Shown here: positions 8,724 through 38,511 of the stretch, in pieces
How positions within the stretch are numbered: position 1 is the first letter of the stretch
Layout of the letters: the number at the start of each line of letters is the position of its first letter
DNA from: a virus
Length of the DNA stretch: 44,625 nucleotides
IMG/VR virus record: IMGVR_UViG_3300025009_000181
Span: 1-44,625 of that record
Strand: one strand, 5' to 3'
Program-made: the position numbers and the translations under genes
The notes under the pieces: model-generated
Told to the model about the DNA's origin: nothing
Database searches by the model: none
Seen by the model: the letters and a program-made list of their open reading frames with translations, nothing else

Positions 8724-10148
8724 CTAAATATAGTCGATTATCAACCACCCTCTATTGTATGAGGTTGAGTCAAAAAAACTCGTATCAAAATTTCCGCCCA
8801 ACTCTCTTACGACATTAATAGTCGTGGCCCCAATGGTTGAAATTCTTACACCATAACCGGACACTGCTGTTGGCATCCCGGGTACTGGAAATTTAGTAGT
8901 GCCTGCGTCGTCTCTTATTAAACCTCTGACACCAACGATGTTGGCGTAGGTCAAACTATGCACCACATCAACACTCGATGTTGAATCCATATTCCAATCG
9001 CCAATTTCAACCACTTTTTGCTTCAGCTGATCCACCCCGCCGATCTGCAAGCCGACCGGGAGGTTAACTTTTCCGTCTGTAAGTACACGCAACCCTTCTG
9101 TCCCCGCTACGCCAGAAGATCCATACAGAGATACAGTCCCAGGAATAGAGATATGATCCTTTGACCTAACGACTACTCGCCCGCTAAAATCATCATCAAC
9201 ATACCCGCCCGCCATAATTTCCGTGACGGTTTGAGCAGTCGCGTTGCCAGTAATGGTTGCGAGTGTAGCGACTCCGCTATCAAGCTTCAGCGGCCCACCA
9301 GTAACCGAAAGCCCATCCGTGAAGACTTTTGGCCCGGCAATGTTTTGCGCTGAAGTTGTATCAACGAGCGTTCCCCCTGCGGCGTGTAGCTTGGCGAAGT
9401 CTACCGCGACGCACCCCTGCCCATTCAACTCCGTTATCTCCGCCGACGCCGCGTGTAAAGCAGCGAAATCGGCGGCAACGCACCCCTGTCCCGCAAGCTG
9501 GTTCAGTTCCGCAGTGGTGACGGTGAGTGCCGCGACGAATGCAGCCGCTGCCGTGATGTTACCACCGTGCGTCCAGGTAGTAGCGGTGTGAATGATAACA
9601 CCATCATATGACAGTACCCAATAACCAGCAGCAAATTCGGCCTCAATAACGGTGCCGATTGTGGAGGATGAGATACTGGCACCAGCGGCGGACGTGAATT
9701 CACCAACGGATAACAGCACATCAGTACCAACGGCGGTAATGGTGAGGGTTTGTGCCGCCGCAACAACGAAACGGATCTTATACCCGTTCACACCAGCGGG
9801 GAGGGTGAAAATGACGGTACCGGCAGCAAGACGGTTGGTGAAGGTGCGGAAACCATTACAGTCGGCGGCGGTGACGCTGTAATTGGCGGTTTTGTTGTAT
9901 ACAGTACGAGAAACGGACACCTGCAGCGTCTCGTCACCACCATCGGAACCTTCGGTTAGAGTTACTTGATTACCGGCGGTCAGCTTCCCGTTAAGGTACC
10001 CTGGAGTCGAATCATTGGCGGATACCGCGATACCGGAACCAACGGTGAGAGCCGCGATTGCGGAAAATAGTTCCGTTATATCATCATTAATTTTCGTTAA
10101 AAGGGAGTCCTTAACGGAATCACTCCCAACCACGAGATCTTGCGGCAT
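8724..10148 (-). CDS. Tail fibre or receptor-binding protein
   Basis: This 474-residue protein starts at ATG 10148 with AAGGGGG upstream. The N-terminal 40 residues are helical and may attach to the tail. Residues 60-200 are beta-rich. Two imperfect copies of a motif beginning Gly-Gln-Gly-Cys-Val-Ala occur at about residues 220 and 245, followed by repeat-like strands typical of trimeric fibres. The C-terminus ends Gly-Trp-Leu-Ile-Ile-Asp-Tyr-Ile, an aromatic beta-strand ending seen in many tail-tip proteins. The final 170 codons (8724-9230) look less GC-rich than the first part, consistent with exchange of a host-range tip. The role is inferred from sequence character and position next to the tail-hub gene. 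Confidence 0.75.
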   Translation of the reverse strand: MPQDLVVGSDSVKDSLLTKINDDITELFSAIAALTVGSGIAVSANDSTPGYLNGKLTAGNQVTLTEGSDGGDETLQVSVSRTVYNKTANYSVTAADCNGFRTFTNRLAAGTVIFTLPAGVNGYKIRFVVAAAQTLTITAVGTDVLLSVGEFTSAAGASISSSTIGTVIEAEFAAGYWVLSYDGVIIHTATTWTHGGNITAAAAFVAALTVTTAELNQLAGQGCVAADFAALHAASAEITELNGQGCVAVDFAKLHAAGGTLVDTTSAQNIAGPKVFTDGLSVTGGPLKLDSGVATLATITGNATAQTVTEIMAGGYVDDDFSGRVVVRSKDHISIPGTVSLYGSSGVAGTEGLRVLTDGKVNLPVGLQIGGVDQLKQKVVEIGDWNMDSTSSVDVVHSLTYANIVGVRGLIRDDAGTTKFPVPGMPTAVSGYGVRISTIGATTINVVRELGGNFDTSFFDSTSYNRGWLIIDYI

Positions 10149-17492: not shown

Positions 17493-19648
17493 TTATCACC
17501 TCCACTTCCACCGGTCGCCGCAGCCGATTTTTCATCGATCGCCGCTCTCCTCTTGTCATCCGTTATTTTCGCCATCAGTGTCGCCATATCTATCGTCATC
17601 CTCCGGTTCTCATCCCGCTCGTGCTGCTGTATATCCATCTGCTTCGTCATAATTCGTGCACGGAAATCGAGCATGGAATCGTCAATCACGGCACCGACTT
17701 TCTTCGCGTCGATTTTCACCTGCGCCCACTTGATTGCGATTTCCTCCTGCTTCAGTTTTTGTTCCATTTCCTGTGCCGCCATCATCTGCTGTTGTGTCAC
17801 CTGCAGGGAATTTATGAAGTCCTTAAGCAGGGATATGTAGAATTCCGGTTGCTTATTCCCCATATTGGACACGTATTTGGTGGCGAGATTATGTATCTGC
17901 TCCGGACCAATGATGCCGGGGAAGACTTGATTCATAGAGGCAAGGAAGGTGAACATCGCCTGTACTTTTTGTGCCTCCGCCATACCAATTTGCGTGTCCG
18001 CACCGAGGGAAGCGCGGCACCGGATCCGCCCCTTTATCTGCTCGGGGGATACAGTGACAGGTACGCCATCCACCGGAACGGTAAAGGGGGCGCTCATGTG
18101 GTGCTGATATAAGATTGCGCATTTCCGGTAGTGGTCACTCACGCCGGTTTCCGCAAAAAGACGTGCCACCATATCGATTCTGGACTGGCCAGCGGATTGT
18201 ATCATCTGAATACCGGCGGCGGTCTTATTAAGACTATCCGCATCGGTTCCTTGGTTGTAACGGGTGGTACCGGTCCTGTTTTCCTTCATCCCCTCGATCG
18301 CTTCAAGCAGGTGCAATACACCGGAATCGAAAGGCTTCGGGTATTCGGTGCGGATGCGTTCGGGGTCGAGCAGGATCGCATCACCGGGGATGTTCTCAAG
18401 CAGTTCCCGAATCGGGACCTTTCCCCCCGGCTTGATGAAGGTACGACCAAGGGAGGAGAAGTCGAAATTATCGAGGATGCGGCGGATGAGCATGGTTTTG
18501 AGGTTCTGTATATCAAGGAGAAGCTCCGAGAACGCGATGCCGAAAAGCTTGTAGCAATCAATTATAGGTGATAATGCGCTCATCATCGTCGTGTTATAGT
18601 CATTCAACTCCCAACGGAGCAGCACCTCATCTTCCGCCACCCAGCAGATGATATTCTCCAGCACCCCGTCACCATCGACGTCACACCGAGTATACCACTG
18701 CACCAGCTTGAGCGTCTTCTTCAGGTTCTTTGCGCTGTCGTACGGGTCGCCGGAATCGGAATAAGATGAGGAGGAAACAGTCGCACCACCGGACGACTCC
18801 CCCTGCCCATCCATATATGACTGCTCTTCCGTGTTGTCCGTCTTCTTCTCAGATGATAGGTGGCGGGATAAACGATCCAAATTGTTGAACAGCTTCTCCC
18901 CCGATTCCTTCTGATACTGCCGGTCCGTCCGCACCAGATAATCCATCGTCACCCGGCTGCTGTACCCCTTCCCATACTCATCGTTCATGAACTTGCACTT
19001 GCGGTCAACAAGTACGTCCCAATGCGGGAGGTTGTGGATGAGCAACCCATCCCGTGTCGTGGTCGTGGTGCGAATATCGATGTCGGTGTAGGTCCCGTCA
19101 CCGTTGTCCGTGTATTCCTCCAACTCCACATCGGGGGCAGCGGCAATCATCTGCATTTGCTGATAATTCGCCCCCGGTATGCGTTCCTTCAATGATGCGT
19201 AAACCGTGTCCCAAGCCTGTGCCACAAATGCGGTATCAGAGACGAGCGCGTCCTTGAACCACTGATAGAACAGGATATACATCGACTTCTCATCATCATC
19301 ATCGATATCCTGCCGTATTTTCGTGAGGAGCGCTTTCCCGATGATCGCCGGTTGACCCTCAATCGTGAGTTCCACCTTGGGATCGGATGATATAAATGTA
19401 CTCATCAGAGACGGCATCACCCACTCGATCGTTTCCAGAATGTCGCGGCTGATAAACTTCGACCGACCTGACGCCTCGTTTCCCAACGGTTTCCCGTAAT
19501 ACCGGCTCCACCTTTTCGTTCGCTCCGGTCCCTGTATTTCCCCGATGTAACGTTCCGCGTCCTTCACCTCCTCCACCACCATATCCTCGATGTACTTCTC
19601 CAGCGTCTTGATCGGGCGACCCTCTTTGTCAACCGTTATATCTGCCAT
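17489..19648 (-). CDS. Portal protein
   Basis: This 719-residue protein starts at ATG 19648 after GAGGGG. It lies between the large terminase and scaffold/coat genes, and its length is typical of podovirus portals (about 550-750). Features include an early Trp-Val-Met-Pro-Ser-Leu segment, several Trp/Tyr-rich strands, Gly-Arg-Thr-Phe-Ile-Lys-Pro-Gly-Gly-Lys, and a long C-terminal helical barrel-like region rich in Gln, Met and Lys (residues about 560-700). It ends in an Ala-Ala-Thr-Gly-Gly-Ser tail. These match the stem and barrel layout of portal rings. The assignment rests on synteny plus overall architecture. Confidence 0.88.
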   Translation of the reverse strand: MADITVDKEGRPIKTLEKYIEDMVVEEVKDAERYIGEIQGPERTKRWSRYYGKPLGNEASGRSKFISRDILETIEWVMPSLMSTFISSDPKVELTIEGQPAIIGKALLTKIRQDIDDDDEKSMYILFYQWFKDALVSDTAFVAQAWDTVYASLKERIPGANYQQMQMIAAAPDVELEEYTDNGDGTYTDIDIRTTTTTRDGLLIHNLPHWDVLVDRKCKFMNDEYGKGYSSRVTMDYLVRTDRQYQKESGEKLFNNLDRLSRHLSSEKKTDNTEEQSYMDGQGESSGGATVSSSSYSDSGDPYDSAKNLKKTLKLVQWYTRCDVDGDGVLENIICWVAEDEVLLRWELNDYNTTMMSALSPIIDCYKLFGIAFSELLLDIQNLKTMLIRRILDNFDFSSLGRTFIKPGGKVPIRELLENIPGDAILLDPERIRTEYPKPFDSGVLHLLEAIEGMKENRTGTTRYNQGTDADSLNKTAAGIQMIQSAGQSRIDMVARLFAETGVSDHYRKCAILYQHHMSAPFTVPVDGVPVTVSPEQIKGRIRCRASLGADTQIGMAEAQKVQAMFTFLASMNQVFPGIIGPEQIHNLATKYVSNMGNKQPEFYISLLKDFINSLQVTQQQMMAAQEMEQKLKQEEIAIKWAQVKIDAKKVGAVIDDSMLDFRARIMTKQMDIQQHERDENRRMTIDMATLMAKITDDKRRAAIDEKSAAATGGSGGDK

Positions 19649-19955: not shown

Positions 19956-21368
19956 TTACCGGTAGTCCAATACTGAATAGGGTTCTCTTCCCCCGCGATC
20001 CACCCGCCCCCCGTACTCCCGATCCCGCCCCTCCATCATCTTTCGGCGGATGTTCTCATAGGACCCATTACCTGACGAGACGGCAGCATTGTTGGTATCA
20101 TCTACCAATTCAATTCCGCATGCGCCAGTACGTAATGAATCGGCAAAATGCGAGGACCAGTCGTGTACTGGCATCAACCGGAAGATACCATTCTTGCTGT
20201 CCCACTCGCGGCGGTATGATGCTAGTGCGGAAACGCCGTGTTCACACTTCACATTGTCGAAGTAAAAATTAGAGAACCGGGAGCGGACAATTTCCACACC
20301 AATTTGCACATCAGCGACTCGCGGCACCCGCACAAAATCAATCCCCGCCATACTCGCTATTTGTCTAATCGTTTCCGCGTTTTCTCCCCCGGTATGCTGC
20401 GGACGCTCGACATCGTGTGGTGCGAGGTGTGTCCCGTATTTATACCCAAGCTGTTCCTTCTTTTCATCCAACACCTTCTTATAGTGCCCAATTCCCTTGC
20501 TGTGGTTCCAGTACAGGTCGATGAATTTGATCATAAACCCGTCCACCTGGAAGAACCAGATCACCATATCATCACTGCGACCGGCACCAAGGTCCCAGCA
20601 AGTATGTACGGGGAGATAGTTGTTGAATGGCACCGGGCAGATGCGTCCTCTTTTCCTTGCTTCCATTATCTCTTCGGCGTAGTATGCCCCCGGCATCGTC
20701 GCTTCGAAGCTGCAGTAATACTCTTGCCGTATCAGCTCCTCACTCATACCGGACTCGCGCTCGTCCTGTATATCGGCTTCAGACAGTACCTTCGTGTCCT
20801 CCACCGTGAGCAGTTCACAGAACCAGTCCTTCTTCTTTTTTGCCATCTCGTACAGCAGATACCCGTGGTTGTGCCCACGCGGGGTGTAGTTGAACAGCGC
20901 CCACCCGCCGTTTTCCTTCAGGATCGGCCGTATATAGTTCCACGCATCGGGGTCCTGCAGTGCGTATTCACTGTACACGCACCCAATCGGGTTGGTGCCG
21001 ACTATTGAATCGATGTTATCGCTCCCCACCACTTGAAATATCGACCCGTAGTTTGTCTCGATTTTCATTTCGGTGTTATTCATCGACTTTCGCACAACCG
21101 GTGGGATATGGTCTATGTACTTAAATCCATCCTTATCAATCCCATCCCAGATAATCTTTTTCCCCTGCTTATACGTGGGGAAAAAATAAAAATATGTCCC
21201 GATCCTTTTATGCATCTCCTTTGCCATTAAGTTGATCAGCGACTTGTCTTTCCCGGCGCGTCGGTGCCAGATCGCAACCCCACGCTTGTACCCGTTTGCG
21301 ATACAGTTGAACAGGTTCGCCTGATACCACCGGGGTTTATAGTTATACGGTATTGTGATTGCGGACAT
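19956..21368 (-). CDS. terL: Terminase large subunit
   Basis: This 470-residue DNA-packaging motor has an N-terminal ATPase and a C-terminal RNase H-like nuclease. The Walker A-like motif is Trp-His-Arg-Arg-Ala-Gly-Lys at 34-40. Walker B is the hydrophobic strand ending Tyr-Ser-Glu at 132-134, with Glu134 as the likely catalytic residue. The coupling motif is Asn-Tyr-Thr-Pro at 160-163. The nuclease begins at Cys-Trp-Asp-Leu-Gly at 257-261 (Asp259), followed by Asp266/267, and a later His-Asp-Trp-Ser-Ser-His-Phe-Ala-Asp motif supplies further acidic residues. Length fits the T7/N4-like group. It precedes the portal gene, as expected. Confidence 0.93.
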   Translation of the reverse strand: MSAITIPYNYKPRWYQANLFNCIANGYKRGVAIWHRRAGKDKSLINLMAKEMHKRIGTYFYFFPTYKQGKKIIWDGIDKDGFKYIDHIPPVVRKSMNNTEMKIETNYGSIFQVVGSDNIDSIVGTNPIGCVYSEYALQDPDAWNYIRPILKENGGWALFNYTPRGHNHGYLLYEMAKKKKDWFCELLTVEDTKVLSEADIQDERESGMSEELIRQEYYCSFEATMPGAYYAEEIMEARKRGRICPVPFNNYLPVHTCWDLGAGRSDDMVIWFFQVDGFMIKFIDLYWNHSKGIGHYKKVLDEKKEQLGYKYGTHLAPHDVERPQHTGGENAETIRQIASMAGIDFVRVPRVADVQIGVEIVRSRFSNFYFDNVKCEHGVSALASYRREWDSKNGIFRLMPVHDWSSHFADSLRTGACGIELVDDTNNAAVSSGNGSYENIRRKMMEGRDREYGGRVDRGGREPYSVLDYR

Positions 21369-22839: not shown

Positions 22840-22906
22840 GCTGACTGCCCCAGCCGGGGGCGAGACGATCGGGGAGTGTGGAGCGGAATTCCCAGTGTGG
22901 CATCGG

Positions 22907-22916
22907 CTCTATAGAG
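22907..22916. promoter_or_regulatory. Candidate upstream activator site for sigma-54 promoter A
   Basis: CTCTATAGAG is a perfect 10-bp palindrome centred about 95 bp upstream of the -24 element at 23009. The same TCTATAGA core occurs about 105 bp upstream of the second sigma-54 promoter. Position and dyad symmetry fit an enhancer-binding-protein site; this is inference. Confidence 0.55.
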
Positions 22917-23008
22917 AGCACACCACAGGTAGGGGACGCGAGGAGGAGGGGCGGGGGCAGGAGGCCCGGACGACGGGCACCACGGCGGGCATCGGGACCA
23001 CTACGGAC

Positions 23009-23024
23009 TGGCACGCCGGTTGCA
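23009..23024 (+). promoter_or_regulatory. Sigma-54 promoter A for the first early gene block
   Basis: TGGCAC at 23009-23014, five bases, then TTGCA at 23020-23024. The -24 GG and -12 GC are separated by exactly 10 bases, the invariant sigma-54 spacing. Transcription would start near 23035, upstream of the gene at 23097. The flanks CGGA(C/T) before and GTTGCAA across the -12 are shared with promoter B. Confidence 0.82.
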
Positions 23025-23096
23025 ATTCCGGTGGTGGGGGGCAGGCACCGCACCCCAGCCCACCGGGGGGCACGATCCCGGCAGGAGCAACCCACC

Positions 23097-23297
23097 ATGA
23101 CGCAACCAGGAGCAGGAACCGCACGCGTACTGTCCGTGCTGATGTGCACAACCCCAGCAGGAGCACCGCAGGCGTGGGGCACCGCAACGGAGCAACCGGA
23201 CGGGAGCTGGCGAGTGGAGCTGTGGTCCGCCACAGCGAAGGATCAGGATGGGCAGGATGCACAGGTGTGGTCAGGAACCGCACGGCAGGATGGGTGA
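23097..23297 (+). CDS. Small early protein, unknown
   Basis: This 66-residue protein starts at ATG 23097 with GGAG about ten bases upstream, 60-75 bases downstream of the predicted sigma-54 start. The sequence is rich in Ala, Gly, Gln, Asp and Trp, with Val-Glu-Leu-Trp and Gln-Val-Trp-Ser-Gly strands suggesting a small beta domain. No motif is recognised. It is the first gene of the early region and is followed by a 13-G tract and GC-rich hairpin. A host-takeover role is only suggested by its position. Confidence 0.62.
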   Translation: MTQPGAGTARVLSVLMCTTPAGAPQAWGTATEQPDGSWRVELWSATAKDQDGQDAQVWSGTARQDG

Positions 23298-23298
23298 T

Positions 23299-23320
23299 GG
23301 GGGGGGGGGGGAATCCCCCC
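23299..23320 (+). repeat. 13-G tract forming a G/C hairpin between early genes
   Basis: Thirteen consecutive G residues (23299-23311), AAT, then six C residues (23315-23320) can form a six-pair hairpin with a very small loop. It lies immediately after the stop of the first early gene and before an A/C-rich leader with AGGAGGA. The long homopolymer is also a likely site of length variation or sequencing uncertainty. Confidence 0.65.
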
Positions 23321-23375
23321 AATCCAACCAGGAGGACACACCAAACCACAGCCGGGACACCGGCAGAAAGCGAGC

Positions 23376-23699
23376 ATGACCATGACAACGAACACCACCA
23401 CAGGCAAGGGCAAGGGCAGCAAGGGCACCGTCAACACCGCTGACGACACCACAGGCAAACCGGAGGCCAGCACCGGGAGGAGACAGGCGATGAGTGAGGA
23501 CTGGGATTTCACGACAGATGAGCAGGGTCAGCGAGTGCCGTTAACCAACGAGACGTGGCCGAATAACCGGGATCGGTGCTACGATTGCGGCAGCACCATA
23601 CCTGGCCACCACACGCCACTGTGCGAGATGGCACCAGAGGGGGCAGTACGGGACCTGCCCGCCAAACCTGGGACGCAGTGGTGGGATCGGGATCGGTAG
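23376..23699 (+). CDS. Small early protein with Thr/Lys leader and Cys pair
   Basis: This frame of 107 residues begins at ATG 23376; the ATG at 23382 and an internal ATG at 23490 with GGGAGGAG upstream are also possible. Residues 1-36 form a Thr/Lys/Gly-rich leader that closely resembles the leader of the next gene at both protein and DNA level. Residues 39-107 form a distinct domain with Cys-Tyr-Asp-Cys followed by His-His and a further Cys, a possible zinc site, plus several Trp. No family is recognised. The shared leader argues that the upstream start is real. Confidence 0.65.
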   Translation: MTMTTNTTTGKGKGSKGTVNTADDTTGKPEASTGRRQAMSEDWDFTTDEQGQRVPLTNETWPNNRDRCYDCGSTIPGHHTPLCEMAPEGAVRDLPAKPGTQWWDRDR

Positions 23700-23726
23700 G
23701 GGCAGGCAGAGACGACACACGACACA

Positions 23727-23747
23727 GCCCCCCCGCATCAGGGGGGC
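23727..23747 (+). repeat. GC-rich intercistronic hairpin
   Basis: GCCCCCC at 23727-23733 pairs with GGGGGGC at 23741-23747 around a seven-base loop. It lies between the early genes ending at 23699 and starting at 23788, followed by an A/C-rich stretch and AAGGAG. It is not followed by a U-tract, so RNA processing or stability is as likely as termination. Confidence 0.65.
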
Positions 23748-23787
23748 ACCACACCACACACCCCACACGGGGAGAAGGAGACACACC

Positions 23788-24165
23788 ATGACGACGAACA
23801 CGACCACCACCAGCAAGACCACAGGCAAGGGGACCAGCAAGGGGAAGACCGGACACGACACCACCAGCAAACCGGAAGCACCGGACACGACACCAACGAC
23901 GAGGGAACAGCTGGGGTACAAGGGGGAAGTCGAGCTGGTCGACGGGAAGCTGCACTCGCATCGGGTCGAGTGCGCATGCGGCAACGTGAGATGGGTCGCA
24001 CCGGGGGATCTGTTCCAGGTCCACGAGTGCAAGCCGTGTGTGGCGAGGAGGAGAAAGGACAAGCGGAACGAGAAGGCAAAGGACAAGCGCGCCGTGAAGA
24101 GCATCGCGAAGCTGGAGGAGAAGCTGGCGGCTGCAAAGGCGAAAGCGGGAGTGGGAGCCGCGTGA
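23788..24165 (+). CDS. Early zinc-ribbon-like protein with basic C-terminus
   Basis: This 125-residue protein starts at ATG 23788 with AAGGAG eight bases upstream. The first 35 residues are the Thr/Lys leader shared with the preceding gene. Residues 62-90 hold Cys-x-Cys (Cys-Ala-Cys-Gly-Asn) and Cys-x2-Cys (Cys-Lys-Pro-Cys), a likely zinc ribbon. The C-terminus is strongly basic and helical with Lys-Arg repeats, then an Ala/Lys coiled coil. A nucleic-acid-binding early protein is a reasonable inference. Confidence 0.68.
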   Translation: MTTNTTTTSKTTGKGTSKGKTGHDTTSKPEAPDTTPTTREQLGYKGEVELVDGKLHSHRVECACGNVRWVAPGDLFQVHECKPCVARRRKDKRNEKAKDKRAVKSIAKLEEKLAAAKAKAGVGAA

Positions 24166-24177
24166 TGCAACCAGGAT

Positions 24178-24218
24178 GGCACCGGGGGATCGGCAGCGAC
24201 ACCACAGCCCCCGGTGCC
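24178..24218 (+). repeat. GC-rich intercistronic hairpin
   Basis: GGCACCGGGGG at 24178-24188 pairs perfectly with CCCCCGGTGCC at 24208-24218 (11 bp, 19-base loop). It lies between genes ending at 24165 and starting at 24271, followed by an A/C-rich leader and AGGAGGA. It is the third such hairpin in this early block. Confidence 0.7.
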
Positions 24219-24270
24219 CCCCGAATGGCAGTACGAGACAACCAGACACAACACAACAGGAGGATTTGTC

Positions 24271-24561
24271 ATGAGTGAAAAGAAACGAGTTGCTGATCTG
24301 TGGCGCACCCTACACGACACGCTGGAGGCGTACCGCACCCTGGAGACGTACCTGAACGACAACGAGTACGAGAGGGTGTACGACAGGATGTACGAAGACC
24401 TTGGGGAGCAGGGGTTTGAGGTTCTTACATGGCACCGGGGGGAGATGTATGTGAACTGGTATGAGGGGATGTACGGTGTCGGCACCCTATCGATGGAGGA
24501 CATGGTGGTGGAACTGCAGGACCTTGAACAGGCACTGACGGAAAGTAGAGGTGACGCATGA
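24271..24561 (+). CDS. Small acidic helical early protein
   Basis: This 96-residue protein starts at ATG 24271 preceded by AGGAGGA. It is acidic and rich in Tyr, Glu, Leu and Met, with helices around Trp-Arg-Thr-Leu-His-Asp-Thr-Leu-Glu and Leu-Gln-Asp-Leu-Glu-Gln-Ala-Leu. No Cys or catalytic motif is present. Small acidic proteins near phage early promoters sometimes inhibit host enzymes; here that remains speculation. Its stop overlaps the next start by ATGA. Confidence 0.7.
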   Translation: MSEKKRVADLWRTLHDTLEAYRTLETYLNDNEYERVYDRMYEDLGEQGFEVLTWHRGEMYVNWYEGMYGVGTLSMEDMVVELQDLEQALTESRGDA

Positions 24562-24674
24562 GTAGACTGGCGATGGTAGAGCTTGCACACAGGCAAGCGG
24601 ATACGCTGCTGCTGATCCAGCGGCTGCGGTGGATGGCGGATCGGCTGGAGGAGATGATGAGGAGAGGCAGATAA
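24558..24674 (+). CDS. 38-residue amphipathic helical microprotein
   Basis: ATG 24558 overlaps the preceding stop (ATGA), and AGAGGTGACGC lies upstream. The product is a single Leu/Met/Arg amphipathic helix ending Arg-Arg-Gly-Arg at a TAA. The same frame stays open after that TAA for 22 more codons (24675-24740), with similar Arg/Leu-rich character, ending just before the next gene. The TAA may be a recent nonsense change, or the continuation may be chance. Confidence 0.5.
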   Translation: MSRLAMVELAHRQADTLLLIQRLRWMADRLEEMMRRGR

Positions 24675-24744
24675 CTGGAGAAGGAGACGCTGCGAAGGGT
24701 GAGGCAGCGGGTAACGATGGCAAAAAGAAGAATGGAGGGGTAAC

Positions 24745-24858
24745 ATGAAGGACAAGTGGAGACATGCGCTCATGGTGGCGCTATACCCGCAAGTGGCGCT
24801 CACCATACTGGCACTATTCGTAATCGCAACGTATCTATTCATAACAGGAGGTGTGTAA
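24745..24858 (+). CDS. 37-residue single-pass membrane protein
   Basis: ATG 24745 follows GGAGGGG. A short charged start (Lys-Asp-Lys-Trp-Arg-His) precedes one hydrophobic segment of about 22 residues (Val-Ala-Leu-Thr-Ile-Leu-Ala-Leu-Phe-Val-Ile-Ala), ending Gly-Gly-Val at TAA. Its stop overlaps the next start (TAATG), and its last codons form that gene's AGGAGG site. Tiny early membrane proteins can alter host envelope functions; the role here is unknown. Confidence 0.6.
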   Translation: MKDKWRHALMVALYPQVALTILALFVIATYLFITGGV

Positions 24859-25127
24859 TGGCGATCACATTGGGACAGGCAAAAAATCTGGAGCGTGGTA
24901 CCACCGTTTACTCCACCCGCAACCGGAATCCGGATGGGAGCCCACAAAGGTGTAGGGTGACGAGCGTAAAGACGTGGAAATCGAAACGGAACGAGCATCG
25001 GGTGGAGGTGAGACTGGCGCACGGGTTGTACAGGTGGGATGTGGTGACGGAGCGGGACCTGGATCTGATCACACTGACGGAAGATAAGGCGCGTGGAGTC
25101 GATAATGGTGTGGAGTCGAGTAAATAG
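24858..25127 (+). CDS. Small basic early protein
   Basis: This 89-residue protein starts at ATG 24858 with AGGAGGTG upstream. The composition is basic, with alternating strands (Thr-Thr-Val-Tyr-Ser, Arg-Cys-Arg-Val-Thr-Ser-Val, His-Arg-Val-Glu-Val-Arg-Leu, Leu-Tyr-Arg-Trp-Asp-Val-Val), which suggests a small beta barrel such as an SH3- or OB-like nucleic-acid-binding fold. It is the last gene of the first early block. The hairpin at 25163-25201 and sigma-54 promoter B follow. Confidence 0.65.
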   Translation: MAITLGQAKNLERGTTVYSTRNRNPDGSPQRCRVTSVKTWKSKRNEHRVEVRLAHGLYRWDVVTERDLDLITLTEDKARGVDNGVESSK

Positions 25128-25142
25128 TTGTGGGTGGTCGCT

Positions 25143-25150
25143 TCTATAGA
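25143..25150. promoter_or_regulatory. Candidate upstream activator site for sigma-54 promoter B
   Basis: The TCTATAGA palindrome is followed by GGACAC. It lies 106 bp upstream of the -24 element at 25249, the same arrangement as at promoter A (101 bp). It is probably a binding site for the same activator; this is inferred from repetition and spacing. Confidence 0.55.
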
Positions 25151-25162
25151 GGACACGGAATA

Positions 25163-25201
25163 GGGATTCGGGTGGTGGCGGTGGTTGTCCCCCCGAATCC
25201 C
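25163..25201 (+). terminator. Hairpin ending the first early block
   Basis: GGGATTCGGG at 25163-25172 pairs perfectly with CCCGAATCCC at 25192-25201 around a 19-base loop. It lies 36 bp after the stop at 25127 and before sigma-54 promoter B. There is no U-tract, so its strength as an intrinsic terminator is uncertain; it could also bring the activator and promoter closer together. Confidence 0.6.
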
Positions 25202-25248
25202 CCCGTCCGACGCGAACCAAGCAAATGAAGGTTTGGTGCACGTCGGAT

Positions 25249-25264
25249 TGGCACGAGAGTTGCA
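25249..25264 (+). promoter_or_regulatory. Sigma-54 promoter B for the second early gene block
   Basis: TGGCAC at 25249-25254 and TTGCA at 25260-25264, with GG and GC again separated by exactly 10 bases. Transcription would start near 25275. A 7-bp inverted repeat (25206-25212 with 25241-25247) sits just upstream. The leader to the gene at 25329 is A/C-rich with AAGGAGG. Confidence 0.85.
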
Positions 25265-25328: not shown

Positions 25329-25574
25329 ATGGACGTTACAATCACATGTAGGTGTGACCAGTGTGGCACCCTCACAACAAAGGCGGTGGACGAGAAAAAG
25401 GCAGTGTACGCGATGGGAATGCACCAAATCGCGGTGGAAATGGTCGGCATGCATTACGAGAGCAAAGATGGTGGGAAATATATGTGTTGGAAATGCCGCG
25501 ACCACCTGATTGCATTGCGATCCCGTCACCAGCAGGAAATCGAAAACTTCTTCTACCCAAACGGAGAGGAATAG
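25329..25574 (+). CDS. Early zinc-finger-like protein
   Basis: This 81-residue protein starts at ATG 25329 with AAGGAGGA upstream, the first gene after sigma-54 promoter B. Cys-Arg-Cys-x2-Cys near residues 7-12 and Cys-Trp-Lys-Cys near residue 57 form a likely Cys4 zinc site separated by a helix. The C-terminus is a charged helix ending in aromatic residues. It may bind nucleic acid or a host protein; no family is recognised. Confidence 0.7.
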   Translation: MDVTITCRCDQCGTLTTKAVDEKKAVYAMGMHQIAVEMVGMHYESKDGGKYMCWKCRDHLIALRSRHQQEIENFFYPNGEE

Positions 25575-25578
25575 GACA

Positions 25579-26028
25579 ATGGGCGACTGGAATCGTTTTT
25601 GGCTCGGATTTGCTGGTGCCTGTGCTCTCGCGGGTGCTGTGATAACGATTGTACCGACACCGACAGCACCACCAACACCGACTGGACTGCACATAGTACG
25701 TGCATCAACCCCAACACCAGCTTACACGATTGAACGCCGCGTGGACGACAGCATTCTCATCCGCATTCCGGACGAGTTTTGCACCGGCACCGACATGGCG
25801 AACCTGGAAGCAGCCAAATTTGTTTGGAGGGAATTGCAGATGCGCGGTGCAGTTTGGGGTGTGATCGTAAACGACGGCTGGGTCCCGATGAGAAGACGTA
25901 TACACGTGGAAGAGGTGGAGGAGCTGATAGAGCTGTACGGGGATCCGGAACCACTTGAAGCAGATGAAGAGGAGAATGACAATGCGGAAGGTGACGATGG
26001 GTACGGGTACGGGCACCAAGATCGTTAA
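25579..26028 (+). CDS. Membrane-anchored early protein with acidic tail
   Basis: This 149-residue protein starts at ATG 25579 (GGAGAGGA upstream). Residues 6-26 are a hydrophobic segment (Phe-Trp-Leu-Gly-Phe-Ala-Gly-Ala) that could be a signal anchor. A Pro/Thr-rich linker follows. Residues 50-115 form a compact mixed domain with Arg-Arg-Val-Asp-Asp and Phe-Val-Trp-Arg-Glu-Leu. The C-terminal 30 residues are strongly acidic, then Gly-Tyr-Gly-Tyr-Gly. The topology suggests a periplasmic or membrane-associated domain. The end overlaps the next gene by 47 bases. Confidence 0.66.
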   Translation: MGDWNRFWLGFAGACALAGAVITIVPTPTAPPTPTGLHIVRASTPTPAYTIERRVDDSILIRIPDEFCTGTDMANLEAAKFVWRELQMRGAVWGVIVNDGWVPMRRRIHVEEVEELIELYGDPEPLEADEEENDNAEGDDGYGYGHQDR

Positions 26029-26239
26029 TAAACCCGTAATGCGGTGTAAGCATGGATTGCGGTGTGGACAGTGTGCCTATTGTGATGGTGGACTGGATCA
26101 CGCAACAGAAATCGGAACCGGTGCAAGAGGTAGTGCGGTTAGTACCATGAACCTGTCCGCACACAAATGGCAACCGGAGGACAACGGGTGGAACAAGCGC
26201 TACACGGGGGGAGTGGTGGCGGATAAGGAGGTGTTGTGA
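25982..26239 (+). CDS. Early Cys-rich protein
   Basis: This 85-residue protein starts at ATG 25982, seven bases after GAGGAG; ATGs at 25964 and 25976 are weaker choices. Residues 20-35 contain Cys-Lys-His-Gly-Leu-Arg-Cys-x2-Cys-x2-Cys, a compact zinc-binding knuckle. The rest is polar with Gly/Thr-rich stretches. The stop overlaps the next start (TGATG). Function unknown. Confidence 0.62.
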   Translation: MRKVTMGTGTGTKIVNKPVMRCKHGLRCGQCAYCDGGLDHATEIGTGARGSAVSTMNLSAHKWQPEDNGWNKRYTGGVVADKEVL

Positions 26240-26508
26240 TGAAAGATGGGCAACGGTTTATCGTGGAAGCAACGGTGGTGCTGAAGCTCAAGACGGTCGA
26301 GGGGAACGAGGTGAAGGGCGGCAGCGGTGAGACAAGGGTGTGGTTCCCGGTGAACGTCAATACGGCGGATAAAATCACCGCAACGCAAGCAAAAGACATG
26401 ATCGAACAGGAGGTAGAGGCATGCAGCACCGCAATGGCAGCAACACGCGTATTTCACCCCGTATCCGCACTCGCCGTTTGGCTTGCGCGCTCCTCGCTGC
26501 AGGGATAA
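26239..26508 (+). CDS. Small early protein, unknown
   Basis: This 89-residue protein starts at ATG 26239 with AAGGAGGT six bases upstream. The first 60 residues look like a small alpha/beta protein: Phe-Ile-Val-Glu-Ala-Thr-Val-Val-Leu-Lys-Leu-Lys strand, Val-Trp-Phe-Pro-Val-Asn-Val strand, then the helix Asp-Met-Ile-Glu-Gln-Glu-Val-Glu. The last 28 residues overlap the next gene in another frame and may be non-essential. No family recognised. Confidence 0.65.
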   Translation: MKDGQRFIVEATVVLKLKTVEGNEVKGGSGETRVWFPVNVNTADKITATQAKDMIEQEVEACSTAMAATRVFHPVSALAVWLARSSLQG

Positions 26509-26834
26509 TTTGTACCGGCGGTGGTTGTGGTGCGGTGGAAGACGCGATCAACCCCGAGCAGGACATCGACTACCACTACATCAGCCGATCCGAAATGGAT
26601 GAACGGTTCGGGGAGAAGTACAACGGGTACGCGGTGTGGAGGACCGGGTTCGGGGAAAATGAATGCGACATCTACCTGCTGGACGACATCAAACATTATT
26701 TCAATAGCGAGGACTGTTTTGAGGCGGTGCTGGCACACGAGGAGCGGCACTGTGCGGAGGGGAACTGGCACGGTGGGGATGCATACGTGGAGCCAGCGTG
26801 TCAAACCGCGATGGAAGAAATGAACAGTAACTAA
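26421..26834 (+). CDS. Exported zinc-metallopeptidase-like protein with HExxH
   Basis: This 137-residue protein starts at ATG 26421 after GGAGGTAGAGGC. Residues 1-45 are Arg-rich then hydrophobic (Ala-Cys-Ala-Leu-Leu-Ala-Ala-Gly-Ile-Ile), followed by a Gly-Gly-Gly-Cys that might be a loose lipobox, so export or lipid attachment is likely. The motif Ala-His-Glu-Glu-Arg-His at about residues 109-114 fits HExxH, the zinc site of many metallopeptidases, within a helix as expected. A Gly/Glu-rich stretch and a Cys pair follow. It could cleave envelope proteins or assist lysis; the substrate is unknown. Only the short motif supports the peptidase call. Confidence 0.62.
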   Translation: MQHRNGSNTRISPRIRTRRLACALLAAGIICTGGGCGAVEDAINPEQDIDYHYISRSEMDERFGEKYNGYAVWRTGFGENECDIYLLDDIKHYFNSEDCFEAVLAHEERHCAEGNWHGGDAYVEPACQTAMEEMNSN

Positions 26835-26873
26835 ACGCACCACATAACGCACACTAAAATGGAGGACGGAATC

Positions 26874-27236
26874 ATGAGTAATAGTGACAAGAAAGTCGGC
26901 ACGATCAATGGCAAGGATGTTTTCACTGACAGCGAAATTGAGAACTTGACGGATCTCGACACCGCGATGGGGGAAACGATAAACATGATGGTGAGCAAAT
27001 TGTCCGCACTCCCGAAGGTAAAGGACATCATGATCTCGGTGCGGTTCGGTGACGGCGGGCAGGCGGATGATGACAACGACCGGTGCATCACGGCTGGTAA
27101 AATCAGCGCCGCGTTCGTCTGCTCGATGGTGATGGAACTATTCGGAAAGGTGCCGAAAGATCTACAACCGAAGATTATGTTGGCACTGATGGGCAACCAG
27201 ATCAACAACATAAGGAAAAGAATGGGGGGTGATTGA
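26874..27236 (+). CDS. Hypothetical early protein
   Basis: This 120-residue protein starts at ATG 26874, eight bases after GGAGG; the upstream ATG at 26859 contains that site. It has an acidic first third (Asp, Glu, Thr), a beta strand Ile-Met-Ile-Ser-Val-Arg-Phe-Gly, and a long C-terminal helix with Phe-Val-Cys-Ser-Met-Val-Met-Glu-Leu-Phe and Lys-Ile-Met-Leu-Ala-Leu-Met. No catalytic residues are evident. It is the last gene before a sigma-70-type promoter. Function unknown. Confidence 0.68.
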   Translation: MSNSDKKVGTINGKDVFTDSEIENLTDLDTAMGETINMMVSKLSALPKVKDIMISVRFGDGGQADDDNDRCITAGKISAAFVCSMVMELFGKVPKDLQPKIMLALMGNQINNIRKRMGGD

Positions 27237-27279: not shown

Positions 27280-27308
27280 TTGACTGTATAGTCCGATTGT
27301 GGTATAAT
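27280..27308 (+). promoter_or_regulatory. Sigma-70-type promoter
   Basis: TTGACT at 27280-27285, exactly 17 bases, then TATAAT at 27303-27308. Both elements are near-perfect consensus in a short non-coding gap (27237-27376). Transcription would start near 27315 and first make the hairpin at 27319-27349 before the gene at 27377. Confidence 0.88.
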
Positions 27309-27376: not shown

Positions 27377-28555
27377 ATGCAAGACCTGCACGACCTTTAC
27401 ATCCACAAGCCACGAATGAAACGGGAACTATTCCGCGCAATGAAGAACCGTGCGGATCACCTACATACACTTTATAAGGAGGAGGGGGAAACAGGAAAAC
27501 AACACCTCATCACGGAATGGGAAGCAAAACGTATAAGTGCACAAGCAGATCGTATGATGAAGCCGGGATATAAGACCGGGAAAACCGCCACCAAAAAGGT
27601 GAGCAGAAAGAGGAGAAAAGTCATGAAGAAAGAAACCACCACCAAAACGACCACCACCGTTGAAACCAGTGCCCCCGCAGCCGAGAGCAAGAAGAAGGTA
27701 CAGGCAACCGGTGCCGTCACGTTGATTCTCACCGGGCTCGATGCGAAAAGTGCAAAGGCCGTTGTCGATGGCACCGGGGCCGAGAGTGCGAGTAAGGACG
27801 GGAATGCCTACCAAGCCGTGTTCCCGATTACCACCGACACGATCCGCGCCGCCCGTACCGATGGGATCAGCAACTACGGTGCCATGTTCGGCTTCAAATC
27901 GAATGCAACCGGTGCGCACATCACGCTATTCGGGGTTGACGCGGGGCTGCTCGATACGCTCTCCCGGTTGACGCGCCGATCCAAGCACCACCTGGATGCG
28001 TTGGGGCTGGAGTTCTCGATCGGTGAAGAGGACCTCACCGTCACCTGTACCCCGATACCGAAAGCTGGTGGATCTTATACCGCCGATGATGTCGTGCTGC
28101 AAACCACCGTTGCGGTGCTGCTTATCGCACGTGCACATAAAGCCTTGAATCACACGGAACACCCGCTCACCTATTTCGACTTCCTGCAGGCGATCGGGGT
28201 GACGGATGGGGTGAGGAGAGAAGAAGAGAGCGCCGTCACGATTCTGAACGGACTCGATCACTACATCAAACCGGAGAAAAAGAAGGCGGAACCGAAAGCG
28301 AAGAAGGAGCCGGGTGCCGAAAAGAAAAACGCCGTGAAGCCGTCCACGAAACCGGCTGCTGTTGCGACCCCCGGTGCCCCCGCTGGTTCCACCACTATCG
28401 GGAAGAAGAAGACCCCCGCATCCCCTCCCCCCGTTGGTGACACCGGGAACATCATGCCGACACCGGGGAAGATGAGCGTGAAGGAAAAGATCGCGGCTGC
28501 CCGTGCGAAGAAAGAAGCGGCGGCGGCTGCTGCACAAACGACCCCTACCAATTAG
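27377..28555 (+). CDS. Large early/middle protein of unknown function
   Basis: This 392-residue frame starts at ATG 27377 (GAGG upstream); an internal ATG at 27623 has a better AGGAG site and could yield a shorter form. Residues 1-110 are Lys/Arg-rich and mostly helical or disordered. Residues 108-270 form a folded alpha/beta domain with strands such as Val-Thr-Leu-Ile-Leu-Thr-Gly-Leu, a helix Leu-Leu-Asp-Thr-Leu-Ser-Arg-Leu-Thr, and Leu-Thr-Val-Thr-Cys-Thr-Pro. Residues 280-392 are a disordered Lys/Ala/Pro tail. It is the first gene after the sigma-70 promoter. No family is recognised; the basic ends suggest nucleic-acid binding. Confidence 0.72.
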   Translation: MQDLHDLYIHKPRMKRELFRAMKNRADHLHTLYKEEGETGKQHLITEWEAKRISAQADRMMKPGYKTGKTATKKVSRKRRKVMKKETTTKTTTTVETSAPAAESKKKVQATGAVTLILTGLDAKSAKAVVDGTGAESASKDGNAYQAVFPITTDTIRAARTDGISNYGAMFGFKSNATGAHITLFGVDAGLLDTLSRLTRRSKHHLDALGLEFSIGEEDLTVTCTPIPKAGGSYTADDVVLQTTVAVLLIARAHKALNHTEHPLTYFDFLQAIGVTDGVRREEESAVTILNGLDHYIKPEKKKAEPKAKKEPGAEKKNAVKPSTKPAAVATPGAPAGSTTIGKKKTPASPPPVGDTGNIMPTPGKMSVKEKIAAARAKKEAAAAAAQTTPTN

Positions 28556-29165: not shown

Positions 29166-29470
29166 ACGAGCAGATCAAGGAGCTGCAGGCGGAACTGGAA
29201 GTGGAAAAAGCGGCAGCGGCGGAGATCCTTGCCCCGATCCACCTCTCCACCGGCATCCGTGGCGTTGCGGGTCCGTTCGGCAATCTCACCTTTTATTATG
29301 GGAAAAACACAAAATTCGATAAGAAGAAGTTGAAATTGTACCTGGTTAAGCAGAAGGTGAAGGCGGAATTGGTGGAGGCGGCTATCCTACACGCCACCTC
29401 CACCAAGGATAACGACAAGCTATCGATACAGTACGACCCCGATGCGATTAAGGTCGGTGGAGAGGACTAA
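29144..29470 (+). CDS. Gam-like or helical DNA-associated protein, tentative
   Basis: ATG 29144 gives 108 residues but has no ribosome site, and the frame upstream (Pro-Asp-Leu-Ala-Ser-Val-Leu-Pro-Ile) looks coding, so it may be the back part of the preceding frame. Residues 7-35 are a coiled coil (Ile-Lys-Glu-Leu-Gln-Ala-Glu-Leu-Glu-Val-Glu-Lys), followed by a strand Gly-Asn-Leu-Thr-Phe-Tyr-Tyr-Gly and a Lys-rich helix. This order resembles Gam-type nuclease-inhibitor proteins, but similarity is not certain. It converges with purZ, the two coding regions overlapping by four bases. Confidence 0.55.
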   Translation: MRRVAGINEQIKELQAELEVEKAAAAEILAPIHLSTGIRGVAGPFGNLTFYYGKNTKFDKKKLKLYLVKQKVKAELVEAAILHATSTKDNDKLSIQYDPDAIKVGGED

Positions 29471-30594
29471 CGACAGAGTGCGTAGCTCCACATCTGGTCA
29501 TTTTGGGGGCCGGTGCCGATGAAGGTGACCCGGCCCCCATTTCCACTAAGTTTACGGACGAAATCATCCACTGCCGGGTGGTTATCCCACAAAATCTCAT
29601 CCTGCTTCTTCCCATAAATACTCCAGTCCAGATAATTCGCGAATTGCAGGCATATCTGTGTCGGACCACACACGCGGACGAATCGGCGGAACCGCTCCCA
29701 ACTGAATTCGAATACGCGTCGGGGGAGCTTTGTCGTGGTTGTTATTTCCCCGAACGACAGCGGCGCACCGGTCGCATCCACCAACGGTGCTCCGCAGCGT
29801 TTCCTGACCTCTTCCCAGCTTATCTCGGCTGCCTCCGCGTACGAGCCGCTGTATCCGGTCCGGTTGCTAACTCGGATGGGGTACGGGCGTATGACCCCGA
29901 TGACTTCCCCGATCCATTGTGGTGGCACCCCCATCTCCGCCATCCCCATCGAGGTGTTGATCATCTTGGAAGTGCAATACGCGGGTGCGATCCCGTGCTC
30001 CAGATCCAGGTCAAACCCCTGCGTCATCTCATGCAGGATCGTATCACCGTCAAGCAGGGAACGGTTAACGAATGGCACCACTTCCATGATCCGTGCCCCG
30101 TGGTCCAACAGCATCTCGTCATCTTTCGCGAAATGCACGGGACCGAGATGTCCTCTTCCAATTTTACGTGACCGCGCCACCCCAACTCCTTGTGTGGTGC
30201 TCCCGATGTTGGAGAAGGTGCCACCACATTCCGCCGCAACGCACTCATCGGTGATAATGGTAGCGCGGGGATCAATATAGATGCGGTCGATATTGAGAGA
30301 CAGATCCAGCACCTCCTTGAGGAAAATTTTGACGTTGATCACCGACGTCGGCCCCAACGCGATCACCCCTCCTCGCATCTGCACCACTTTACCGGCGGCT
30401 GGCAGGTGATACGATACGTACTTGCTCCCGGCGTTGTTGATGTAGGTATGACCGGCATTGGGGGAAGCTGCCATCGTCACGATGTCAATCGGTGGATTCG
30501 TGTTGTGTGCGATGAATGCCGACAGTTTCCCTTTTGCTTCCGACCCGGCCTGACCACCAATTACGACGTTGAATTTTCCTTCTTGAATCAGCAT
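29467..30594 (-). CDS. purZ: PurZ, 2-aminoadenylosuccinate synthetase (Z-DNA pathway)
   Basis: This 375-residue member of the adenylosuccinate synthetase family is the size of phage PurZ and shorter than cellular PurA (about 430). The glycine loop is Gly-Gln-Ala-Gly-Ser-Glu-Ala-Lys-Gly-Lys at 14-23. Ser18 replaces the catalytic Asp of PurA (Gly-Asp-Glu-Gly-Lys-Gly), the diagnostic change in PurZ. His49 in Asn-Ala-Gly-His-Thr and the loop Gly-Ser-Thr-Thr-Gln-Gly-Val-Gly at 131-138 are retained. The known PurZ reaction joins dGMP with aspartate, leading via host PurB to 2-aminoadenine deoxynucleotide. ATG 30594 follows GGAGGA. It is transcribed leftward behind a 97-residue gene, opposite to mazZ and the polymerase. 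Confidence 0.93.
   Translation of the reverse strand: MLIQEGKFNVVIGGQAGSEAKGKLSAFIAHNTNPPIDIVTMAASPNAGHTYINNAGSKYVSYHLPAAGKVVQMRGGVIALGPTSVINVKIFLKEVLDLSLNIDRIYIDPRATIITDECVAAECGGTFSNIGSTTQGVGVARSRKIGRGHLGPVHFAKDDEMLLDHGARIMEVVPFVNRSLLDGDTILHEMTQGFDLDLEHGIAPAYCTSKMINTSMGMAEMGVPPQWIGEVIGVIRPYPIRVSNRTGYSGSYAEAAEISWEEVRKRCGAPLVDATGAPLSFGEITTTTKLPRRVFEFSWERFRRFVRVCGPTQICLQFANYLDWSIYGKKQDEILWDNHPAVDDFVRKLSGNGGRVTFIGTGPQNDQMWSYALCR
29505..29538 (+). terminator. Candidate terminator inside the 3' end of purZ
   Basis: GGGGGCCGG at 29505-29513 pairs with CCGGCCCCC at 29530-29538 (9 bp, 16-base loop), followed by ATTTCC. It lies 35 bp past the rightward stop at 29470 but within the purZ coding sequence on the other strand, so it could stop early transcripts before they run antisense through purZ. 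Confidence 0.55.
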
Positions 30595-35077: not shown

Positions 35078-35530
35078 ATGGCGCGCAAGCATCGACAGGA
35101 ACCGATACGGGAACTGGACTACGGTCGTGGTTATGTATACTGCCCTTCCCGTGGTGACGGTGTGGCGAAAGTAAAGGATGCGAACGGGAAAGAGCGCGCA
35201 CTCGCAACCGGGAGTGAACGCGTGTGCGTCGAGTTGTGCTGGTACTACACGAAGATTGCGGACCATTACCACTGTGTACACCGTTGTGGCTTATCTGATT
35301 GGGAGCGGGCAATACCGGCTGATGCGGTTACCACTTGCAGCAGTTGTGGTCACACGGTCCTCCGCATCATGAGCAGCGTCTGCCCGGTGTGCGGCGCATC
35401 ACTAATCAAAATGGCTGAACCGGAACCGGAACCAGAAATACCGGTGGTGTTCTGGTCCCCAGCGGACTTAATCAACGACATCGATGACGATGAGGAGGAG
35501 TTTATATTATGGAAAGTATACGGGACCTGA
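35078..35530 (+). CDS. Protein with Cys pairs, zinc-ribbon-like
   Basis: This 150-residue protein starts at ATG 35078 after TAAGGAG. It has several Cys: Tyr-Cys-Pro, Val-Cys-Val-Glu-Leu-Cys, His-Cys-Val-His-Arg-Cys, then Cys-Ser-Ser-Cys-Gly and Cys-Pro-Val-Cys-Gly, the last two forming a standard zinc ribbon at about residues 87-110. The C-terminus is acidic (a run of Asp/Glu) and supplies the GAGGAGGAG ribosome site of the next gene, mazZ, which it overlaps by 22 bases. The coupling to mazZ may hint at a shared process; the function is unknown. Confidence 0.68.
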   Translation: MARKHRQEPIRELDYGRGYVYCPSRGDGVAKVKDANGKERALATGSERVCVELCWYYTKIADHYHCVHRCGLSDWERAIPADAVTTCSSCGHTVLRIMSSVCPVCGASLIKMAEPEPEPEIPVVFWSPADLINDIDDDEEEFILWKVYGT

Positions 35531-36051
35531 CACGAGCGATTGAACTTGCATCCACATTGGTGCCAGGGGAATGTATATGCAAAACGATGAGTGAAGAGGA
35601 CGAGTTGTGTCACCACTGCTTCATTACAGATGTGTTGACTCGCTGCCGGTTATTTGTTCAGCAGCGCTCCCACGTGCTCGATTACACGGACGAGGTGAAC
35701 AAAGCCGCGATCTACCCAGGCAAGGATAAAGGGATCTTCGGCCTTCTTTACGCGATTCTCGGTCTTGTCGGTGAAGCGGGGGAAGTCGCGAATGCGGTGA
35801 AGAAAGAATTACGTGATAACCAAAAGGTGGTGGACGTCATCGAGGCTTTTGGTGACCTGAACTTGCACCGGCTTGGTGTGAAGACGGACGACATCGGAGA
35901 AGAAATAGGTGACCTGATGTTTTACGCTGTTCGTGCAGCGGTCGAATCCGGACACCACGACTTGCGGCAAATCCTCGGAATAAACATCGCGAAAATAAGG
36001 GAGAAGCGGGAGCTGATACTGAAAGAAAGAATAAACCGCGACCACAAGTAA
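35509..36051 (+). CDS. mazZ: MazG-like nucleotide pyrophosphohydrolase, MazZ candidate
   Basis: This 180-residue protein starts at ATG 35509 after GAGGAGGAG. The MazG/all-alpha NTP pyrophosphohydrolase signature is clear: Gly-Leu-Val-Gly-Glu-Ala-Gly-Glu-Val-Ala at 85-94 (Glu89 and Glu92) and Glu-Glu-Ile-Gly-Asp-Leu-Met-Phe-Tyr at 131-139 (Glu132 and Asp135), the metal-binding ExxE and ExxD pairs. In Z-DNA phages MazZ removes pyrophosphate from (d)GTP to give dGMP for PurZ; that role is inferred from the co-resident purZ and polymerase genes. The N-terminal 60 residues carry Cys22, Cys24, Cys34 and Cys37, an unusual possible zinc site. Confidence 0.85.
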   Translation: MESIRDLTRAIELASTLVPGECICKTMSEEDELCHHCFITDVLTRCRLFVQQRSHVLDYTDEVNKAAIYPGKDKGIFGLLYAILGLVGEAGEVANAVKKELRDNQKVVDVIEAFGDLNLHRLGVKTDDIGEEIGDLMFYAVRAAVESGHHDLRQILGINIAKIREKRELILKERINRDHK

Positions 36052-37787: not shown

Positions 37788-38511
37788 CCAACGTATCGGA
37801 TCGGTGGAACTCCACCCACACCTGCAAACTCCCCACACCACCTGTGAACTGGAGTACGGCGATGCGGTCATATTAGGTCGTGTCGGTGACCGTGACGTGA
37901 CGATCGGGGTTGAGCGCAAGGTGCTGTTGGACCTGATTAAATCAATCGAATCCGGTCGCCTCGCCGCACACCAGCTCCCCGGTATGGGGGAACAGTATGA
38001 TCGGTCCTACCTTATTGTTGAAGGAAAATGGGGGATAGACCGGCAGCGTCACTTGTGCCGGTGGTCGGGCGGTTCCCCCAAAAATCGACGTATGGAGCCG
38101 CTTCGTCTTGGCTCCCGCGTTTACGGTTGCCGTGACATCCATTCATTTCTTAATTCAGTTATGGACATCTTCAATGTGCGACTTATTACAACCGGTGGAA
38201 TTGAGCACACCGCTGCCTGGATTGACGACATCCACTATTGGTACAACAAGCCGCGACACTCCACCGCAGAAATGATGGTAGAACAACCAGTACCGTTAAC
38301 TGGTCGGTATGAGCGCCCTTCTCCTATAGCACTCGCGGTTCGTGGTTTTACTGGTATTGGTGGTCGTCGTGCTATTGACATTAGTCACCATTTTGATTCC
38401 ATGATCGACTTGTGTGCTGCCTCCGTTTCTGATATCATGTCCGTGCCTGGAATCGGGAAGACAACAGCAGAACAACTATATAGACAACTACGAGGAGAGA
38501 AACTGTCATGA
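37774..38511 (+). CDS. ERCC4-type nuclease with helix-hairpin-helix end
   Basis: This 245-residue protein starts at ATG 37774 after GAGGAGG. It carries the XPF/ERCC4 nuclease signature Glu47-Arg-Lys-x3-Asp53 within Gly-Val-Glu-Arg-Lys-Val-Leu-Leu-Asp-Leu, preceded by Gly-Asp-Ala-Val-Ile-Leu-Gly at 29-35 (Asp30). The C-terminal 60 residues form a double helix-hairpin-helix with Gly-Phe-Thr-Gly-Ile-Gly and Val-Pro-Gly-Ile-Gly-Lys-Thr-Thr. Family members cut branched or flap DNA. Its stop overlaps the next gene by ATGA. It probably resolves replication or recombination intermediates. Confidence 0.88.
   Translation: MLLLDQRIGSVELHPHLQTPHTTCELEYGDAVILGRVGDRDVTIGVERKVLLDLIKSIESGRLAAHQLPGMGEQYDRSYLIVEGKWGIDRQRHLCRWSGGSPKNRRMEPLRLGSRVYGCRDIHSFLNSVMDIFNVRLITTGGIEHTAAWIDDIHYWYNKPRHSTAEMMVEQPVPLTGRYERPSPIALAVRGFTGIGGRRAIDISHHFDSMIDLCAASVSDIMSVPGIGKTTAEQLYRQLRGEKLS

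Follow-up and report, generated by a model that had tools for sequence, protein, structure and literature searches.

Predicted sigma-54 promoters ahead of two small-gene operons in a phage and their conservation among its relatives

A phage usually depends initially on the housekeeping sigma factor. Sigma-54 acts only when an activator burns ATP, and the genes under its control fire only once that activator has detected a cue, for example nitrogen status, membrane stress or motility. A sigma-54 promoter is recognised by its requirement for RpoN and an ATPase activator and by transcription that begins about 12 bases beyond the -12 element. Canonical bacterial promoters of this type have the form YTGGCACG-N4-TTGCA with GG-N10-GC spacing and palindromes upstream, features that are also found in the phage clade described here (the palindromes in the relatives). 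The clade differs from the bacterial promoters in that its sites are phage-borne, in that the upstream palindromes vary from phage to phage, and in the face-to-face arrays of sites carried by some relatives.

The use of sigma-54 by a phage has a precedent in Pseudomonas phage YuA (Mesyanzhinovviridae), whose development is strictly sigma-54-dependent according to a later paper (PMC5053324); the phage analysed here would, as proposed, likewise exploit the sigma-54 of its host. Three '-24/-12' promoters of high activity are annotated among the structural genes in the YuA record (38392-38570, 40888-41035 and 47152-47312), and none of the three was canonical by a scoring matrix set by hand from the known sigma-54 consensus. 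By the same matrix, no match scoring at least 17 was found in the structural arm of the window (the whole 44,625-base stretch of DNA that was analysed), and sigma-54 promoters among structural genes, as in YuA, were thus absent from it. Unlike those of YuA, the sites in the window are canonical, are conserved throughout a clade and head the replication-side arm; the site arrays of some relatives are a further difference. No paper on this arrangement was found in the literature searched, in which subscription journals were mostly uncovered.

Two canonical sites and the genes downstream

Structural genes, including an SU10-type portal and terminase, run leftward in the first 22 kb of the window. 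The right part contains small genes followed by replication genes (helicase, MazG-like, ERCC4-type nuclease and family A polymerase), all of which run rightward. The features discussed below are listed by position; G001 is the nearest relative, IMGVR_UViG_3300031552_000008.

22896-22927, no strand: candidate upstream activator site 1, with TCTATAGA (22908-22915) central in an imperfect TGTGG...CCACA dyad that is 71% complementary
23008-23024, + strand: predicted sigma-54 promoter 1, CTGGCACGCCGGTTGCA; start about 23035; the same 16 bases lie at the corresponding place in G001
23097-25127, + strand: operon 1, small ORFs 23097-23297, 23376-23699, 23788-24165, 24271-24561, 24558-24674, 24745-24858 and 24858-25127
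25143-25150, no strand: candidate upstream activator site 2, a copy of TCTATAGA
25206-25247, no strand: inverted repeat adjoining the -24 element of site 2, arms 25206-25220 and 25233-25247
25248-25264, + strand: predicted sigma-54 promoter 2, TTGGCACGAGAGTTGCA; start about 25275; the G001 counterpart is TGGCACGGGAGTTGCA
25329-27236, + strand: operon 2, small ORFs 25329-25574, 25579-26028, 26421-26834 and 26859-27236, probably with others
27280-27308, + strand: extended -10 sigma-70 promoter, TTGACT-N17-TATAAT, matching at 11 of 12 positions with the TG present; heads gene 27377-28555 and the replication block

A sequence-only reading had reported two perfect copies of TGGCAC-N5-TTGCA with the invariant GG-N10-GC spacing in gene-free gaps, and this was borne out. 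Site 1 (TGGCACGCCGGTTGCA, 23009-23024) and site 2 (TGGCACGAGAGTTGCA, 25249-25264), both on the + strand, were the only perfect copies on either strand of the window. Dinucleotide shuffles of the window contained 0.027 perfect copies on average, with two copies in none of 300, and about 1.4 Mb of other viral and bacterial loci yielded two (0.06 per 45 kb). When one flanking base is counted, both sites read YTGGCACG-N4-TTGCA, and both agreed with the sigma-54 consensus at each fixed position when tested against YTGGCACG-N4-TTGCW. Each lies in the correct direction upstream of an ORF with a ribosome-binding site: site 1 precedes ORF 23097-23297, which has a ribosome-binding-like GGAG, and site 2 falls between the stop of ORF 24858-25127 and an ATG at 25329. 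The starts predicted from the -12 position are 23035 and 25275. No sigma-70 promoter was recognised at either site.

We consider it probable (about 0.85), judging from sequence, that host RNA polymerase carrying sigma-54 (RpoN) uses both sites as promoters, that they depend on a host activator and that they serve two operons of small genes. The holoenzyme would be recruited as a closed complex at the -24 and -12 elements of each site, and the DNA would be melted by an enhancer-binding ATPase of the host, bound some 80-130 bp upstream. Transcription would then proceed rightward into two successive operons, which are flanked by the divergent junction on one side and the sigma-70 promoter of the replication block on the other. 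The genes of these operons are small and mostly orphan, and may be early, conditional or late. ORF 23788-24165 has orthologs in G001 and in a second relative, G435, downstream of the first site in each. In all three genomes the first site is followed by a protein that has paired cysteines and a tail rich in Lys and Arg. ORF 24858-25127 is similar to a stretch of another relative, G002.

The claim that the two sites drive the early region was not borne out in that form. The small-gene operons beside the divergent junction are headed by sigma-54-type sites, but the replication block has its own conserved sigma-70 promoter, so that sigma-54 would head only the junction-proximal operons. Identical hexamers with identical spacing precede the ortholog of gene 27377-28555 in G001, and comparable sigma-70 promoters in the same direction lie downstream of the sigma-54 cluster in G001, G002, G016, G424, G446 and G438. 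The replication genes therefore need not await sigma-54.

Conservation among relatives

G001 was the one record found by a polymerase search (polymerase 61% identical). Its relationship to the window extends over most of both arms and takes in the capsid, portal and terminase. It contains exactly two perfect sites, TGGCACGCCGGTTGCA and TGGCACGGGAGTTGCA, at the two corresponding places, and the DNA surrounding them has diverged from that of the window; by this comparison the sites are a phylogenetic footprint. G002, which was found by motif, shares the replication module with the window (polymerase 44% and PurZ-like protein 52% identical), not the portal and terminase, and has three sites, each closely upstream of a ribosome-binding site and ATG.

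Further records were gathered by polymerase search and PurZ-like alignment without use of the motif. Among the loci recruited by PurZ homology, ten continue beyond purZ for at least 4.5 kb on the early side, and all ten contained a match above 14 bits in the early direction, 4.1-9.4 kb past the gene; one of the ten, G002, had already been found by motif. Nine have canonical or near-canonical sites and only G432 has a weak one alone (15.4), while the PurZ loci lacking matches extend no more than 4.4 kb past purZ. On the opposite side of purZ, three or four matches above 14 bits were seen in all loci pooled. Structural genes differ between lineages that share the sites. In 16 records, TGGCAY-N5-TTGC occurred 62 times in 23.1 kb of junction clusters and twice in the remaining 642.6 kb, counts in which the cluster limits were drawn around the matches and G002, G440, G441, G443, G446 and G447 were recruited by motif; the records found by homology are therefore the independent test. 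The retention of both place and sequence across the phage clade strongly supports the earlier proposal that these are sigma-54-type promoters.

A probe composed of the site and its start region recovered 16 stretches from 2.9 million viral contigs. Several of these come from phages that share no detectable gene with the window (G440, G441 and G447) and that likewise have clusters of sites. A search of viral contigs with the portal protein returned nothing. Single matches in G020 and G021 lie inside likely coding sequence and were disregarded. When CCGACCGACGCGGCCTCG, a word common to G001 and G002, was used as a probe, its other matches had neither sites nor genes in common with the window and look like chance.

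A general coupling of PurZ to sigma-54 was also rejected. PurZ-type enzymes 32-36% identical to that of the window occur in Vibrio phage K300, Bacillus phage vB_BpsS-140, Burkholderia phage Bm1 and Acinetobacter phage Bhz20, and no canonical sigma-54 sites were found in the whole records of K300 and Bhz20 or in the parts of vB_BpsS-140 and Bm1 that were searched. Conversely, sites are present in G440, G441 and G447, in which no purZ was detected.

Start regions, upstream elements and the activator

Most lead sites in the clade read YTGGCACG-N4-TTGCA and, 6-8 bases further on, where transcription would be expected to start, have a run such as AAGGGTAGGG; the common start region is AAGGGTRGGG-like. 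A ribosome-binding site and ATG usually lie within about 130 bases downstream. Perfect palindromes, defined by arms of 6 or more bases and a spacer of no more than 8, occurred upstream of lead sites at an average of 1.64 per 300 bp; random stretches from these genomes had 0.53. In the relatives they lie about 50-230 bp upstream of the sites and are of several types: GGAACT/AGTTCC in G002, G016 and G424; CCACAA/TTGTGG in G016, G425 and G431; TGTGG/CCACA in G001, G435 and G438; TGAGAC in G434; and GGACATGGGATGTCC in G433. In G001 a single copy of the 18-base TGTGGCACKGAATTCCCA lies upstream of each site, and the two copies are oppositely oriented. Upstream of the window sites, site 2 included, no perfect palindrome with arms of 6 bases or longer was found. 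The inverted repeat next to site 2 contains CGTCCGACG, a word that was also seen near sites of relatives.

The matching upstream elements described in the sequence-only reading exist: TCTATAGA occurs exactly twice in the window, at 22908 and 25143, which is 101 and 106 bp upstream of the sites from start to start. We estimate at roughly 1-2% the chance that a 9-mer is shared at a matched offset, and the pair is only modestly significant alone. It is private to the window in comparison with G001 and G002, neither of which contains it; G016 has one stray copy in its structural arm. Since TCTATAGA is absent even from G001, it cannot be the general activator site of the group. It was also rejected as a sigma-70 -10 element, there being no suitable -35 at the correct spacing. 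An upstream activator site likely exists, to judge from the palindromes, and the candidate role of TCTATAGA in the window is the least secure part of the proposal.

The promoters are probably driven by an enhancer-binding activator. The idea of upstream activator sites held in outline, with palindromes about threefold enriched upstream, mostly in relatives. No enhancer-binding ATPase was found to be encoded by G000 or G001, and no sigma-54 DNA-binding domain was found in 14 records; a phage-encoded source of either was accordingly discarded. The absence of the ATPase from G000 and G001 means that an activator would have to be host-derived. No Rfam element was found. Attempts to name the host were uninformative: a polymerase search of genomes gave phage-like contigs in MAGs alone (L066, and L067 in a Latescibacteria bin), probably misbinned, and CRISPR-like searching of 395 genomes gave five short matches without repeat arrays, attributed to chance. 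The upstream palindromes offer a sequence handle for finding uncultured hosts and their activators.

If the promoters function as proposed, the conserved sigma-54 module makes part of the infection conditional on a host signal of the kind that such activators sense, and part of the infection is probably gated by the physiological state of the host. It is possible, though doubtful, that several unrelated phage groups habitually place their junction-proximal operons under sigma-54 control. The arm junction would then be an interchangeable module that reads the activator, its upstream sites being replaced to suit the activator of each host, with face-to-face arrays serving in some phages as two-way promoters or as a trap.

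Face-to-face arrays and alternative readings

Dyads of the form TGGCAY-N5-TTGC-N4/5-GCAA-N5-RTGCCA are present in G016, G424, G425 and G446 (two to four each), a few hundred bases upstream of the lead site, and none was found in the window, G001, G002, G433, G434, G435 or G438. G425 has up to ten sites in one region. Each dyad would hold one polymerase at most. The dyads may promote transcription in both directions, trap sigma-54 polymerase or bind another protein. They raise a new question, that of how sigma-54 polymerase behaves on symmetric sites.

The arrays are unexplained, and this is the main reason that an alternative stays open. The motif might be the half-site of a different phage or host DNA-binding protein, such as a replication initiator or repressor, acting at the divergent junction, with the full dyad occurring in some relatives. 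The fixed inner spacing of the four sets of dyads and the clustering of sites at the junction are both in keeping with this, and simple promoters would not need to face one another. Against it, the single sites match the consensus at all fixed positions, are oriented in the early direction and precede the common start region and translation signals; seven genomes, the window among them, are dyad-free; and no alternative binding protein was identified. We regard this reading as unlikely.

A still less probable proposal is that the sites mainly trap sigma-54 polymerase, depleting the sigma-54 regulon of the host, rather than transcribe phage genes. Sigma-54 polymerase forms stable closed complexes even without an activator, and the palindromic arrays, with at most ten sites in one region (G425), could act in this way, but the window has two sites only, each heading an operon, and start regions and upstream palindromes accompany the lead sites; depletion would apply at most to the array-bearing relatives. 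Chance matches to a short consensus can be dismissed, for although G or C accounts for six of the 11 fixed bases and the region is GC-rich, the shuffles and the conservation in related genomes rule this origin out.

Sigma-54 promoters therefore remain our preferred reading of the window sites. A further observation concerns the window's PurZ-like protein, for which the best NCBIfam model was PurZ at 170 bits, compared to a cut-off of 300. PurZ is distinguished by replacement of the PurA catalytic Asp with Ser, and the window protein has Ser in its GSEAKGK motif.

Arrays of sigma-54-type sites

In four of the viral records compared, palindromic sigma-54-type sites stand face to face in arrays, and the inner spacing is fixed at 4-5 bases:
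G016, 9996-10093, face-to-face site array
G424, 42907-43076, face-to-face site array
G425, 20237-20417, face-to-face site array
G446, 17874-18120, face-to-face site array

A CGTCCGACG-like word, found at 25204-25214 of the window, also occurs by the sites of the window's nearest relative (G001) and of records G002, G016, G424, G434 and G438. Often part of an inverted repeat, the word lies either close to the -24 element or amid the sites upstream.

A possible Z-genome gene set

Three genes of the window raise the possibility, from their predicted products, that its phage has a Z-genome (2-aminoadenine):
29467-30594 (-), PurZ-like synthetase, with Ser where PurA has its catalytic Asp (motif GSEAKGK)
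35509-36051 (+), MazG-like protein
39143-41800 (+), family A polymerase fused N-terminally to a family-4 uracil-DNA glycosylase

The PurZ-like gene has orthologs in G001, G002, G016 and further records. In the PurZ-like gene of G438 (G438 25591-27123, -) the family match falls in two parts about 450 bases apart within a single open frame of 531 aa; the split points to an in-frame insertion, for example an intein.

Candidate tail-spike and binned contigs

The 600-aa protein encoded at 42817-44619 (-) of the window, which matches the Disaggregatase-related family above the cut-off and DUF5123 below it, is perhaps a beta-helix tail-spike.

Two phage contigs of the window's replication clade (L066 and L067) were binned into MAGs, L067 (25 kb) into one of Candidatus Latescibacteria; their placement hints weakly at a host or reflects misbinning.
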